This document shows, piece by piece, positions 10,209-29,448 of a stretch of DNA of 33,613 bases. Under the pieces are notes generated by a model. That model was not told the origin of the DNA, searched no databases, and saw only the letters and a list, made by a program, of their open reading frames with translations. The first letter of the stretch is position 1, and every line of letters begins with the position of its first letter. Source of the DNA: Verrucomicrobiota bacterium (GTDB taxonomy: Bacteria; Verrucomicrobiota; Verrucomicrobiia; Chthoniobacterales; UBA10450); assembly GCA_003219215.1 (NCBI GenBank), contig QHPY01000094.1, positions 1-33,613 of the forward strand. Reading direction: 5' to 3'. A program made the position numbers and the translations under genes.

Positions 10209-11024
10209 ATGAGCATCGGGTTACTAGGACAGAAAATCGGCATGACCAGCGTCTACGACGCCAACGGTCGGCTGCATCCTGTGACCGTGATCGCAGTCGG
10301 CGATAACGCTCTTTTGCGTCGTCTGACGCACGAGAACGATGGCTACTCGGCCGTGCAGGTCGGGTTCGGTTCGCAAAAAGAATCGCGTGTAAGCAAAGCG
10401 GAGCTCGGTGTCTTCAAGGCTGCCAGTTCGGAACCGAAACGATTCGTGCGCGAGTTTCGCCTAACGAGCGATTTGGGCGAGGGCGAAGTGAATCTCACCG
10501 TCACCCAATTTCAGCCGGGCGATTTTGTCGACGTGATTGGACGCTCGAAAGGCAAAGGTTTCCAGGGTGTGATGAAGAAGCACAACTTCGATGGGCAAGG
10601 CGCGGCCCACGGATCGAAAACGCACCGGCGTAACGGAGCCGTGGGGAATCGTTCCACGCCGGGCCGCATTTGGAAAAACATGGGAATGCCCGGTCACCTC
10701 GGTGACGAGCGCGTGACCGTGCAGAATCTGCAAGTGATGCAGGTGCGCGAGGCCGAGAAAGTGATTTTGATCAGCGGTGCGGTCCCAGGCTGTAACGGGA
10801 GTTACGTCGTTGTTAGGCCGGCGATCAAAAATCCCGCCGCGCAGATAAGACTGCACCAGCAGCACGCGAAACAAGACAAGGCCGTCGCGAAGAAGCACGA
10901 AGTGGAGAAGAAAGCGGAAGAGAAAAAGCCGGGAGCCGAGAAAAAACCTGAGGCCGAAAAGAAACCTCAGGCCGAAAAGAAACCTGAGGCCGAAAAGAAA
11001 CCTGAAGCGGCTGAGAAGAAATGA
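10209..11024 (+). CDS. rplC: 50S ribosomal protein L3 with Lys/Glu/Pro repeat tail
   Basis: Early-assembly protein whose loop reaches the peptidyl transferase centre. The core (about residues 1-207) shows LLGQKIGMTSVYD at the start, KGKGFQGVMKKHNFDGQ and RRNGAVGNRSTPGRIWKNM. Beyond it lies a tail of about 60 residues rich in Lys, Glu, Ala and Pro, built partly from an 18-nt tandem repeat. Typical L3 is 205-215 residues, so 271 is long. The stop overlaps the rplD start by ATGA, which suggests translational coupling. Confidence 0.97.
   Translation: MSIGLLGQKIGMTSVYDANGRLHPVTVIAVGDNALLRRLTHENDGYSAVQVGFGSQKESRVSKAELGVFKAASSEPKRFVREFRLTSDLGEGEVNLTVTQFQPGDFVDVIGRSKGKGFQGVMKKHNFDGQGAAHGSKTHRRNGAVGNRSTPGRIWKNMGMPGHLGDERVTVQNLQVMQVREAEKVILISGAVPGCNGSYVVVRPAIKNPAAQIRLHQQHAKQDKAVAKKHEVEKKAEEKKPGAEKKPEAEKKPQAEKKPEAEKKPEAAEKK
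10935..11006 (+). repeat. Four 18-nt tandem repeats in the rplC tail
   Basis: Units start at 10935, 10953, 10971 and 10989 and follow GCCGARAARAAACCTSAR, encoding the hexapeptide A-E-K-K-P-E with one Gln variant. Units 2 to 4 are almost identical in DNA, so the array probably expanded by slippage recently. Confidence 0.85.
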
Positions 11025-11943: not shown

Positions 11944-12792
11944 ATGGCGCTCAAAAATTATCGTCCACTCACGCCGATTCAGCGTTTTAAGCAGACGCCT
12001 GCTTTCGATGAGATTACGAAGTGGCGGCCGACACGCGCTCTCATTGAGCCGAAGAAAAAATCCGGTGGCCGCAACAATTACGGGCGGCTCACTTCGCGGC
12101 ACATCGGTGGCGGTCACAAACAGAATTACCGCAAAGTCGATTTCAAACGCCGCAAGCACGGTGTTTCAGCCGAAGTGATGGGGATTGAGTACGATCCGAA
12201 CCGCTCGGCGCGAATTGCTCTTATTAAGTACACCGACGGCGAATTAAGCTACATCCTGGCGCCGAACGGTCTGCAAGTTGGTTCCAAAGTTGTCGCCGGC
12301 AACGACGTCCCGCCCGATCTCGGCAATTCATTGCCGCTGCGCGCGATTCCCCTCGGCACGAACATTCACAATATCGAGCTAAGCCCGGGCCGCGGCGGTC
12401 AGGTTGCGCGAAGCGCGGGTCAGCAGGCAATCTTGAACAACCTCGAAGGAGGTTACGCGTTGGTGAAAATGCCATCGGGGGAAATCCGCCGGATTCACGA
12501 GAATTGTTTCGCGACGATCGGACAGGTTGGAAATGTCGATCACATGAACGTGGCCAGCGGCAAAGCGGGACGCACGCGCTGGCGCGGACGCCGGCCGCAC
12601 GTACGCGGAATGGTGATGAACCCGATCGACCATCCAATGGGCGGCGGTCAGGGTAAATCAAAAGGCGGCGGGGGGCGTCATCATCCCGTGAGTCCGTGGG
12701 GGCAATTGGCCAAAGGATTCAAAACGCGGAGCAAACGCAAGCCGAGCGACCGCTTCATTTTGGAGCGCAAGCGTGGCAAGAAGAAAATTTGA
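11944..12792 (+). CDS. rplB: 50S ribosomal protein L2
   Basis: Needed for subunit association and near the peptidyl transferase centre. 282 residues. [19 protein letters not shown] lies near residues 57-75, and the C-terminal block [18 protein letters not shown] contains the conserved His. The ATG follows the rplW stop through ATTT, with no Shine-Dalgarno in the junction. Confidence 0.98.
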
Positions 12793-12797
12793 TTTTT

Positions 12798-13076
12798 ATG
12801 GGAAGATCACTAAAGAAAGGACCCTTCGTCGAATCGCATCTTCTGGAGAAGATCGACAAGATGAACGCCTCGGGCTCGAAAAAAGCGATCAAAACCTGGT
12901 CGCGACGCTCGATGGTGACGCCGGATTTTGTCGGCCACACGTTCCTGGTGCACAACGGAAAGACGTTTCATTCCGTTTTCATCACCGAGAACATGGTTGG
13001 ACATAAGCTCGGCGAGTTTTCGCCAACGCGAATCTTTAAGAAGCACGGTTCGCACACGGCGAAGGTGACCAAGTAA
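12798..13076 (+). CDS. rpsS: 30S ribosomal protein S19
   Basis: Head-domain protein contacting S13 and the A site. 92 residues from ATG 12798, beginning [19 protein letters not shown] and including [15 protein letters not shown] and [16 protein letters not shown]. The frame is open upstream inside rplB but only the sequence from 12798 matches S19. The spacer after the rplB stop is TTTTT. Normally rplV follows directly; here another gene intervenes. Confidence 0.98.
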
Positions 13077-13081
13077 TTTGA

Positions 13082-13109
13082 ATTTTCGATTTTCGATTTT
13101 CGATTTTCG
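13082..13109. repeat. Four tandem ATTTTCG heptamers
   Basis: Perfect ATTTTCG units at 13082-13088, 13089-13095, 13096-13102 and 13103-13109, directly after the rpsS stop. Similar AT-rich tandem blocks are common intergenic repeats in some Verrucomicrobia and Planctomycetes as I recall them. Their placement inside a ribosomal operon is unusual. Confidence 0.85.
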
Positions 13110-13111
13110 AT

Positions 13112-13181
13112 TGCTCGAAAGAGCAGCCGGTTGGGGATCGATGATCATTTTTGTTGGGATGTTGCCAGCCGGAGGGCTGGC
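13112..13181. repeat. Two hairpins at the 5' end of the unknown S10-cluster gene
   Basis: TGCTC-GAAA-GAGCA (13112-13125) is a 5-bp stem with a GNRA-type tetraloop. GCCAGCC-GGAG-GGCTGGC (13164-13181) is a 7-bp stem. Both flank the proposed ATG at 13141. They could be repeat-derived or could shape translation of the gene or mRNA stability between rpsS and rplV. Confidence 0.6.
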
Positions 13182-13914
13182 GGGAGAGGGAAATAGTTCT
13201 TTGTCAGAATCCAAAATTGAAAACGCGGAGCAAAAGATCACCGTCGAGTCGCTGCTCGCGCAGAATGAAGATCTGCGCAAGCAATTGTCGATTCAACAGG
13301 AGTCGCTCAAGACATTGACGGCGAGCCTGGCGGAATCGAACGCCGAAGCGGAACTGTTTCGCCGCAAGTATTCCGATTTGGAGCTGCGGATGGAAGCACT
13401 TGGGCTGGCGTCGGCGAATAAAGATCGCACAAAGCTCGAGCAACGATTGCTCGCGGCGGTGAGCGATCTTCGATTGACGCAAAAAGAGCGCGATGAATTT
13501 CGCGATCAGCTCCTCGGTTTGGACGAGGCGCTGTTGCGATATTTGCAGACATCGCAGGGTGGCGACGCGCAGGCGCGAATGGACGTGGAAATGCAATTGC
13601 GCAAAACGAGCGAGCTGGTTGGAGGATCGACATCCGCCGCTGCGCAGGAACCGCAGCCAAGTTTGATGGATGGCAGCGTAGTTAGCGTGAAGGACGAATG
13701 GTCGTTTGTGGTCGCGAACATTGGTGAGCAGCACGGCGTGAAAATTGGCATGCCGCTGCGAGTGATGCGCGGCGATCAAAAGATCGCAACGCTCCGCGTG
13801 GTGGACGTGCGTCAGCGGATTTGCGGGGCGGTGATGGAGGATTCCGGAAAAGAGAAAATAAAAGTGGGCGATCGCCTCCAGGCGGATGCCCGCTCGAATG
13901 TGACTTTAAAGTAA
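13141..13914 (+). CDS. Unknown coiled-coil protein encoded inside the S10 cluster
   Basis: I do not recognise this gene. From ATG 13141 it is 257 residues: a short hydrophobic N-terminus (MIIFVGMLPAGGLA) that may be a weak signal or anchor, a long charged helical stretch with coiled-coil character at about 33-157 (many E, K, Q and L), a Ser/Ala/Pro linker, then a compact domain at about 175-250. That domain has the pattern GSVVSVKDEWSFVVANIG, GVKIGMPLRV and KVGDRL, suggesting a small beta-barrel like those in cell-envelope scaffold proteins; this is only an impression. The frame is open back to a TTG at 13078 within AT-rich repeats, so a longer start is possible. The stop TAA is followed at once by the rplV ATG, so it is co-transcribed with and probably translationally coupled to rplV. 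Base composition resembles the neighbours. Confidence 0.75.
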   Translation: MIIFVGMLPAGGLAGEGNSSLSESKIENAEQKITVESLLAQNEDLRKQLSIQQESLKTLTASLAESNAEAELFRRKYSDLELRMEALGLASANKDRTKLEQRLLAAVSDLRLTQKERDEFRDQLLGLDEALLRYLQTSQGGDAQARMDVEMQLRKTSELVGGSTSAAAQEPQPSLMDGSVVSVKDEWSFVVANIGEQHGVKIGMPLRVMRGDQKIATLRVVDVRQRICGAVMEDSGKEKIKVGDRLQADARSNVTLK

Positions 13915-14373
13915 ATGGAAGTTAGATCGATATATAAGTACGCGAGGATTTCGCCATTTAAGGTGCGCGAAGTGACGCGAGAGATTCAGGGTCTGCCGGT
14001 TTCGGCAGCGCTCGACGTTCTCGCTTTCACGCCGAAGAAAGCGGCGTTCCTGATCAACAAGACGCTCAAGAGCGCGATCGCGAACGCGGAAAACAACGCG
14101 AATTTAAAAGCGGACGGTCTGGTCGTGAAGGAAGCGGTCGTGGGCGAGGGTCCGACTTTCAAACGAATGATGACGCGCGCCCGTGGCAGTGGCAGCCGGG
14201 TTCTGAAGCGGACGAGTCACATCCGGATCGTTTTGACGGACGACGTGGCAATTGAGACGCGCGAGACCAAAAAGGCGAAGCGCGATCAGGAAAAGAAGGG
14301 CGGCGAGAGCGCAGCAAAATCGACAACGGCGAAAAAAGGAAAGAAGAAGACCGCGAAGGCGGCCAAGAAATAA
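13915..14373 (+). CDS. rplV: 50S ribosomal protein L22 with Lys-rich tail
   Basis: Lines the exit tunnel opposite L4. Core residues 1-110 include [38 protein letters not shown] and [18 protein letters not shown] basic tail rich in Lys, Ala and Thr (about 117-152) makes it 152 residues against the usual ~110. The ATG directly abuts the stop of the unknown coiled-coil gene (TAAATG). Confidence 0.96.
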
Positions 14374-14377
14374 TTTT

Positions 14378-15079
14378 ATGGGACAAAAAGTTAATCCGAT
14401 TGGATTTAGACTCGGTGTGAGTCGGGACTGGCGGTCGCGCTGGTACGCATCGCCGCAAGAGCTGCCCGCGTTCCTTCACAGCGATCTTGAAATTCGCGCT
14501 TACGTGAAGAAGAAGCTGCAATTCGCCGCGGTCGCAAAGATTGTGATCGAGCGTGCTTGGAATTCGATTCGCGTCACGATCCACACTGCCCGTCCGGGAA
14601 TCGTGATCGGCCGCAAAGGTGCTGAGATCGAAAAGATGACGGAAGAAATTTCGAAGATGGCGCAGGGCAAACAGATCAAGATCGACATCCAGGAGATCAA
14701 GACTCCGGAGATGGATGCGCAATTGGTCGCCGAGAACGTGGCGCTACAAATCGAGCGCCGAATCGCTTATCGCCGCGCGATGAAGAAAGCGGTCCAGACG
14801 GCGATGGATTTTGGCGCGGAAGGAATTCGTTTGCGTTGCTCGGGTCGATTGAATGGTGCCGAAATTTCGCGTTCGGAGTGGTATCGCGAGGGCAAAGTGC
14901 CGCTGCACACATTGCGCACCGCGATCGATTACGGGTTTGCGGAAGCGAACACGGTTTATGGAAAGATCGGTGTGAAATGCTGGATCTGTAAGAAGGAAGA
15001 AGCACCAAGCGAAGCGCCGATCGCAGCCGCACCACCACCACTACCACCGCCTCCACCAACTGAGCCAGTCGAAGCCTGA
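14378..15079 (+). CDS. rpsC: 30S ribosomal protein S3 with Pro-rich tail
   Basis: Part of the mRNA entry site and its helicase activity. 233 residues. It starts [13 protein letters not shown]; the KH domain carries the GxxG loop GRKG at 78-81; the C-terminal domain has [20 protein letters not shown]. The end is an Ala/Pro-rich tail with runs of prolines (about 214-233). The frame is open upstream inside rplV, but S3 homology begins at ATG 14378, four T residues after the rplV stop. Confidence 0.97.
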
Positions 15080-27641: not shown

Positions 27642-27699
27642 AATGCTGGTCTGCTTCCTGCTTTTATCCGGCCAGCACTTATCTCACTTCCTTCTAATT

Positions 27700-29448
27700 A
27701 TGGTTACTTCACTTAAGCAACGGGGATGCGTCGTGGCGGTGGCCTTACTGGGCGTCCTTTCCCTGTCCCAAGGGCAGACAAATCCCGCGCCGGCCGGCCC
27801 AGCTCAGCCACCCGACCCAATCAAACCAGCTGACCATCCGCAAATGTTGCTGGCGCAAGCCCTGGTCCAAGCTGCCTCTCCAGCCGCGGCATCGACCACA
27901 AAATCGACCACGACCTCTTCCACGGTGGCGACTCCGGTTTTGACCGAAGCCGATGCAACGGTTGAAAGCGGTGGTGTTGGCGTACGGGAATTTCAAGGGG
28001 ACGACGTCGGCCAAGTGCTCCGATTGCTCGCCCGCCAGGCCAAGGTCAACATGGTTGTGAGCGATGCTGTTACCGGGACGGTAACGATGCGGTTGGAAGA
28101 CGTGACGGCGCTTCAAGCGATCTCGATCATCGTCAAAGCCAAAGGGCTTTTCATGGATAAGATCGATACCGTCTATTACATCAAGACCGCTGCCGAGCGG
28201 ACGGCTGAGCCCACTGAAACTGACAATTACCAATTCAGCTACGCGCGCGCCAAAGATATTACGCCGCTAATCGCGTCGCAGCTGGCGAGTAAAGTTCCAC
28301 CGCAAATCGACGAACGCACCAACACGATTTTCTTCAGTGAAACCCGCAGCAACATCGACAACATCCGAAAGATGTTGGTGCAGATCGACAAGCCGACGAA
28401 GCAAGTGATGATCGAAGCGCGGCTGGTGGAAGTGAGTGCCGATCCGGTGCAGGCCTATGGAATTAACTGGGCCGGAACGGTAGGCAGCGCCTCCTCGCCA
28501 AAAACCTTCCAGTACGGTGCGCCAACGACCAGCACCAGCACCACCGACCCTAAAACCGGCTTAACAACGACTAATTCGACATTTACCGGCGCAACCTCAC
28601 CTTTCGCTTTGGGCAATCCCGGAAGCTCGAATTTCTTCGGCAGTCTCACTAAACTCGCCTTCGGCCAATTTGCGATTCTATCAGTACCGCAGTTTTCCGC
28701 GACCCTGCAGGCTCTGAATGAGGACTCGGATGCTGAATTTCTAGCGAACCCGCGCGTTGTCACGGCGGATAATCAGCAGGCCAAGATCGAAGTCCTCCGG
28801 AATCAACCAATCCCGCAGCTGAATTTTAACGAGCAAACTGCCACCGCTGTTTTCGGCGGTTTCCAAGATAAGCAATTCGGTAACACGCTGATTGTTCGAC
28901 CGTCGATCAACAAAGACAATTTCGTCACGCTTTCAGTGAAGCCTGAGATCAGCAACAAGGTGAACGATTTCCACTTCTCTTTTAACGGCGCGGATGTCAC
29001 CAGTCCGATCATTGATAAGCGTTCTCTCGATTCCAATGTTCTCATCAAGAGTGGCGACACGCTGGCAATCGGCGGTTTGATTTCGGATCAGGTTTCGAAG
29101 TCGCGAACCAAAGTGCCATTGCTCGGCGATATTCCAGTAATTGGCTACGCATTCCAAAGCCATGACAATGAACGTCACAAACGCAACCTGCTTATTTTTG
29201 TGACGCCGACGATCATCGATCAGCATTATGGCACCGGATTGGAAGATCAGGTTTCCGGACTCCATCACAACGGCGAAGAGTATGCCGATCCAAATGGCTG
29301 GCGAAATAATGCCAAGGGCGCAGTCCGGCTGGTCCCCACTTCGCATCGCCAGCTAGCGGCCGATTATGCCAAACCCGGGGAACCGCCGCCGCCGGAGGAA
29401 GCCGCTCGAGTGCAGTTTAAGGGCAGCGCGAAAGACCGGGACGAATAA
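27700..29448 (+). CDS. Outer-membrane secretin (GspD/PilQ family)
   Basis: Forms a multimeric outer-membrane channel for type II secretion or type IV pili. 582 residues from ATG 27700. Signal peptide at 1-25 (VVAVALLGVLSLSQGQ). A Thr/Ser/Pro/Ala-rich linker to about 90. An N0/STN-like domain at about 95-165 (REFQGDDVGQVLRLLARQAK). An N1-like domain at about 175-235, ending IDKPTKQVMIEARLVEV. The secretin pore domain follows, with the signature VPLLGDIPVIGYAF near residue 471 and LLIFVTPTIID. ATG 27643 upstream is in frame but lacks a signal-peptide pattern. No other secretion or pilus genes lie nearby, so its system cannot be told. Confidence 0.9.
   Translation: MVTSLKQRGCVVAVALLGVLSLSQGQTNPAPAGPAQPPDPIKPADHPQMLLAQALVQAASPAAASTTKSTTTSSTVATPVLTEADATVESGGVGVREFQGDDVGQVLRLLARQAKVNMVVSDAVTGTVTMRLEDVTALQAISIIVKAKGLFMDKIDTVYYIKTAAERTAEPTETDNYQFSYARAKDITPLIASQLASKVPPQIDERTNTIFFSETRSNIDNIRKMLVQIDKPTKQVMIEARLVEVSADPVQAYGINWAGTVGSASSPKTFQYGAPTTSTSTTDPKTGLTTTNSTFTGATSPFALGNPGSSNFFGSLTKLAFGQFAILSVPQFSATLQALNEDSDAEFLANPRVVTADNQQAKIEVLRNQPIPQLNFNEQTATAVFGGFQDKQFGNTLIVRPSINKDNFVTLSVKPEISNKVNDFHFSFNGADVTSPIIDKRSLDSNVLIKSGDTLAIGGLISDQVSKSRTKVPLLGDIPVIGYAFQSHDNERHKRNLLIFVTPTIIDQHYGTGLEDQVSGLHHNGEEYADPNGWRNNAKGAVRLVPTSHRQLAADYAKPGEPPPPEEAARVQFKGSAKDRDE

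Follow-up and report, generated by a model that had tools for sequence, protein, structure and literature searches.

TsaP and FlgT, the best domain relatives of the protein considered here, are periplasmic ring proteins, and the gene pair rpsS-rplV is among the most rigid in bacteria. TsaP, the type IV pilus secretin-associated protein (PDB 3jc8/3jc9), is exported, carries a small beta domain and is a LysM protein by its PDB entry name; FlgT (PF16538) has N-terminal and middle domains in addition to its C-terminal one (FlgT_C); and MreC (PF04085) follows the order signal or anchor, coiled coil, beta domain. A small PVC-restricted hypothetical protein, the CT421.2 family of about 53 to >80 aa, has been described as a molecular signature (PMC3444138). 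The gene reported here, located in a 33,613-nucleotide stretch of Verrucomicrobiota DNA (the window), lies between rpsS and rplV and is referred to as the S10 gene. Its product resembles TsaP in its predicted export and in a small beta domain of the same type, but it has a coiled coil in place of LysM, for which Pfam scans found no match in the protein or its family members. At 257 aa with a signal peptide it is also set apart, by description, from the CT421.2 family. The S10-spc cluster of the window is otherwise standard, as judged from open reading frames and translations, and its relevant features are as follows.

11944..12792, + strand: rplB (L2), from its open reading frame and homology to the mapped loci
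12798..13076, + strand: rpsS (S19), upstream neighbor, from its open reading frame and translation
13082..13112, + strand: heptamer ATTTTCG, 4.4 copies, in the gap between rpsS and the S10 gene (TRF)
13141..13914, + strand: S10 gene, predicted exported coiled-coil protein of 257 aa with a FlgT_C/TsaP-like C-terminal domain, from its open reading frame, dN/dS and same-place orthologs
13141..13185, + strand: predicted Sec signal peptide core MIIFVGMLPAGGLAG, cleavage near residue 14-15, from hydropathy and alignment
13243..13626, + strand: helical coiled-coil region, residues 35-162 (AlphaFold2)
13663..13890, + strand: C-terminal beta domain, residues 175-250, from alignments, the TsaP profile match, sub-threshold FlgT_C matches and AlphaFold2
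13915..14373, + strand: rplV (L22), downstream neighbor, from its open reading frame
14378..15079, + strand: rpsC (S3), from its open reading frame and homology to the mapped loci

The earlier note on this DNA had described a 257-residue gene whose stop abuts the rplV start, and this was borne out: the frame is intact from ATG 13141 to the stop at 13912-13914, and the junction reads TAAATG, with the rplV ATG at 13915. The window's own genome holds one copy. Compared with eight relatives, the gene has a dN/dS of 0.10-0.25, with changes falling mostly at third codon positions, a pattern that, on sequence grounds, marks it as translated and constrained by purifying selection. No sigma-70-like promoter was found on either strand between 12700 and 14450, nor a terminator-like site on the + strand of the same interval, which fits, without proving, a single transcript over rpsS, the S10 gene and rplV; the region gave no Rfam match to an RNA element. 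The location of the gene and its operon membership are well supported, and by sharing the S10 transcript its output would be expected to track growth rate.

Two in-frame TTG codons upstream of ATG 13141, at 13111 and 13078, would each lengthen the product. TTG 13111 is a credible start, since in the close relatives L007 and L016 the frame begins five codons ahead of the matching ATG (the codon there is GCC in the window) and since a product begun at ATG 13141 would lack a basic residue before its hydrophobic core; a basic n-region is present only if translation begins at TTG 13111. Read in frame, the heptamer repeat encodes the N-terminal extension NFRFSIFDFR. Long exact copies of the motif were seen at just 4 of 213 loci; the window's own genome contains six overlapping matches to its 18-base core, against none for the reversed control. 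The repeat appears to be a dispersed heptad-repeat element that, on insertion, would supply in-frame N-terminal codons to the S10 gene. On the other side of the gene, seven relatives (L007, L009, L010, L016, L020, L021 and L030) have a segment of ~95-110 nt before rplV with complementary GTTAAAAG/GTTACAA-type and CTTTTAAC/TTGTAAC-type words, possibly palindromic filler. Other features of the window include an 18-bp tandem repeat of 3.9 copies (10935-11005) encoding the lysine/glutamate-rich C-terminal tail of an L3-like protein, charged tails in rplV and L24-like proteins as well, an imperfect tandem duplication at 87-449 (period 198, 1.8 copies, 87% matches), and a secretin-family protein at 27643-29448 (PF00263 match 28711-29220), about 14 kb downstream of the S10 gene.

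The hydrophobic N-terminus suspected in the earlier note is real and general, and the envelope or membrane role that it had guessed fits a signal peptide. A hydrophobic N-terminal segment above 1.8 hydropathy is present in all 73 homologs examined (best 10-residue value: mean 2.59, minimum 1.85), a count that is supportive rather than independent, as hydropathy was among the criteria for choosing start codons and signal peptides were called by a simple hydropathy rule, not SignalP. The same cut-off was passed by 0 of 488 control N-termini of rpsS, rplB and rpsC, and by 33% of those of rplV. Lysine or arginine precedes the core in 63 of the 73, and the core of the window protein aligns with GLAA-EGNSSLSES of its relatives. 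Some relatives have lipoprotein-like or membrane-anchor N-termini, which would point to the periplasm. The window protein itself was rejected as a lipoprotein: the lipobox cysteine is missing, and lipobox-like motifs occur in only 13 of the 73 homologs.

The long coiled coil claimed for the protein gained support from AlphaFold2 models, with helices at residues 35-86, 89-140 and 143-162, mostly at pLDDT 72-93. Six strands were predicted for the C-terminal domain of ~80 residues, also in line with the earlier description of a compact beta-like fold, at a modest confidence of about 60-67 pLDDT; both AlphaFold2 runs modeled this domain with low confidence because they were built from close relatives only. 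Foldseek returned no match below E 0.001 for either model. The domain has the conserved pattern G..GVk.GMPf.V.R....i...rVvdVr..i.GAv ... GD, and when a profile of 27 C-terminal domains was run with hmmsearch against PDB sequences, homology to TsaP was found (E 1.1e-6 for the whole sequence, i-E 0.048 for the best single stretch), with a weak match to solved FlgT (3w1e, E 0.28). The stretch that resembles FlgT_C is the G..GV..G.pf.V.R segment; the N-terminal and middle domains of FlgT are absent. Sub-threshold matches to FlgT_C, with E values no higher than 0.1, were obtained for 36 of the 58 members (best 6.2e-5), and the window protein scored 11.1 bits against a gathering cut-off of 27. Membership in FlgT_C was rejected, as no member exceeded the Pfam cut-off and no protein in 38 genomes did, the window's own included.

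MreC shares with the S10 protein the order of signal or anchor, coiled coil and beta domain. Faint matches to the MreC barrel were seen in 3 of 58 members (E 0.027 or worse) and in 5 of 27 C-terminal domains, together with a weak Foldseek match, but no S10 member lies above the PF04085 cut-off. A true MreC is encoded by a separate gene in the window's genome (1.5e-41), and also in genomes lacking the S10 gene; being separate nearly everywhere, it was rejected as the identity of the S10 protein. MreC matches above threshold were found in 36 of the tested genomes, the exceptions being the two of genus g47, G237 and G290. The general plan recurs in dispersed Verrucomicrobiota paralogs (L158, L171-L176, L179, L181-L184), which have an anchor, a coiled coil and a recognizable C-terminal domain, as in the S10 protein, but lie outside S10; L182 and L184 comprise two tandem copies. 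In a quick-search tree of 82 columns from the C-terminal domain, these 12 paralogs separate from 65 S10 rows with SH-aLRT 98, so the S10 copies appear to be a single orthologous lineage passed down at this position.

Homolog searches covered Verrucomicrobiota genomes. Within the family of the window's genome, whose named members are Spartobacteria, Chthoniobacterales and Candidatus Udaeobacter MAGs, orthologs were found in 79 of 83 genomes and in all 30 of good quality. Across the order, matches at E up to 0.01 were found in 181 of 197 genomes (107 of 112 in the good-quality subset), a tally that includes some weak matches to the C-terminal domain, and with a 58-member profile (alignment A1) the gene was recovered throughout the class and from further classes of the phylum. 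Within the order, homologs are only about 30-50% identical to the window protein. The earlier note had weighed homologs being missing or always outside ribosomal clusters; the opposite was found: across the phylum, homologs sit in the rpsS-rplV interval. In 140 of 140 genomes with both flanks readable (repeats of one genome left out, and rpsS, the S10 gene and rplV mapped in every locus), the homolog lies between these two genes on the same strand, and in seven further loci one flank is visible. The mapped loci were picked for having hits, and every strong hit fetched lay between rpsS and rplV; matches elsewhere in the genomes were weaker, and no strong ortholog outside S10 was seen among the sampled genomes, despite the dispersed paralogs. 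Neither Pfam nor NCBIfam has a model above cut-off for the protein, no PDB sequence matches it in full, and no description of the gene was found in the papers searched. The kind of domain is known; what appears to be undescribed, in the literature and databases searched, is the gene together with its place and its conservation across the phylum.

The gene is widespread, not universal. Families f21, f24 and f47 have a short form of about 120-160 aa, consisting of the signal peptide and the C-terminal domain, so the coiled-coil part is dispensable in several families. In f41, f45, f50 and f6/g40 a divergent reading frame of similar build occupies the same place, at or below the profile threshold. 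The gene is absent, and rpsS and rplV are 1-20 nt apart, in f13/g32, f19, f20, f26, f29, f31, f32, f33, f37, f40 and one f45 genome; it is also absent from two 0.9 Mb genomes of f8 (gaps of 148 and 313 nt) and from some f24 genomes (26-218 nt). One locus (L188, genome G085 of f4) has 552 nt between rpsS and rplV and no clear homolog, though its genus-mates have the gene, which may reflect recent decay or an assembly error. Because many lineages manage without it, the gene is not universally essential.

An ortholog is also present in a cultured genus. Genome G237 encodes proteins matching the solved Amuc_1102 and Amuc_1100 (E 2.6e-137 and 5.5e-177, respectively, with near identity to Amuc_1100 along 287 residues), and from these matches it can be assigned to Akkermansia. 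Its S10 gene (L216) is flanked by rpsS and rplV and lies on the same strand as the S10 cluster, and the product shares 31% identity with the window protein across 192 residues (E 4e-24). In a published transcriptome, the ribosomal cluster Amuc_0294-0308 shifts as a block (PMC11480725), and from genome position this block would contain the S10 gene.

These results are most economically read as pointing to a FlgT_C/TsaP-like scaffold or adaptor in the periplasm, with its production linked to that of the ribosomal proteins. The protein would be exported through Sec to the periplasm, where the coiled-coil region would hold up the small FlgT_C/TsaP-like beta domain, and this domain would dock on, or assemble with, an envelope structure. 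Because the gene lies mid-operon, its product may be made in proportion to ribosomal proteins, so that supply would scale with growth. Co-occurrence with MreC and secretins named no docking partner. We consider it somewhat better than an even bet that this is a vertically inherited, Verrucomicrobiota-wide envelope gene in S10, encoding a periplasmic helical scaffold in growth-scaled supply.

A serious rival, which we judge clearly less probable though far from negligible, is that an ordinary envelope gene landed in the S10 cluster of an early ancestor and stays there as breaking the operon is costly, its place being functionally meaningless. The place has indeed stayed constant while sequence and architecture drifted widely (257 aa versus forms of about 130 aa), the gene was lost cleanly in several lineages to leave the 1-20 nt gaps, and its distance to rplV varies across loci from overlap to >100 nt. 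However, if S10 expression were of no use to the gene, occasional moves would be expected over the history of a phylum, and strong orthologs were never seen relocated in the sampled genomes, though dispersed paralogs prosper elsewhere.

Less likely still, and in our view improbable, is an accessory of an outer-membrane secretin of the type IV pilus or type II kind, a TsaP-like ring stabilizer devoid of LysM. TsaP is the best solved relative of the C-terminal domain; secretins occur in 36 of 38 tested genomes, with one in the window (28711-29220), and of the two secretin-less genomes (f20), G241 also has a compact rpsS-rplV junction. Against this, the TsaP match is limited to the C-terminal domain and LysM is missing, and secretins are present in many genomes without the S10 gene (G127, G160, G218, G232, G247 and others). 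Partnership with a secretin is thus not supported by co-occurrence, as secretins persist where the S10 gene is gone.

The fixed position of a predicted exported protein directly upstream of rplV would also suit a regulator in cis, in which export of the nascent chain, sensed during translation as in SecM or MifM, sets rplV initiation. In 31 of 175 loci (not deduplicated) the stop codon of the gene touches or overlaps the rplV start, so that translation of the two may be coupled in some lineages, but more than 15 nt separate the two genes in 85 of the same 175. Moreover, alignments place conservation in the folded domain, with no short arrest-like motif at the C-terminus, and lineages without the gene have a normal junction. 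That the S10 gene is a cis-acting export monitor whose secretion state tunes rplV-rpsC translation therefore seems very unlikely; if true, ribosome synthesis in Verrucomicrobiota would be gated by envelope export capacity. A cytoplasmic ribosome-assembly or translation factor belonging with its neighbors, suggested by location alone, is unlikely to the point of being scarcely credible and was rejected on the signal-like N-termini (73 of 73, with lipoprotein-like forms among relatives) and the periplasmic nearest domain relatives, with identity of only about 30-50% across the order also against it. The earlier interpretation was thus partly supported: the role it proposed in ribosome supply or nascent-chain export found no support, given the predicted exit from the cytoplasm, the kinship of the domain with TsaP and FlgT, and the ordinary compact junction of lineages lacking the gene.

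The retention of a predicted exported protein between rpsS and rplV in most sampled lineages suggests a hard-wired co-production of an envelope component and ribosomes. The conserved placement spans soil Chthoniobacterales to Akkermansia and other classes, and the family, which Pfam and NCBIfam scans did not recognize, is worthy of a name for annotators. With an ortholog in a cultured gut bacterium, the proposed link between growth rate and envelope supply is directly testable.
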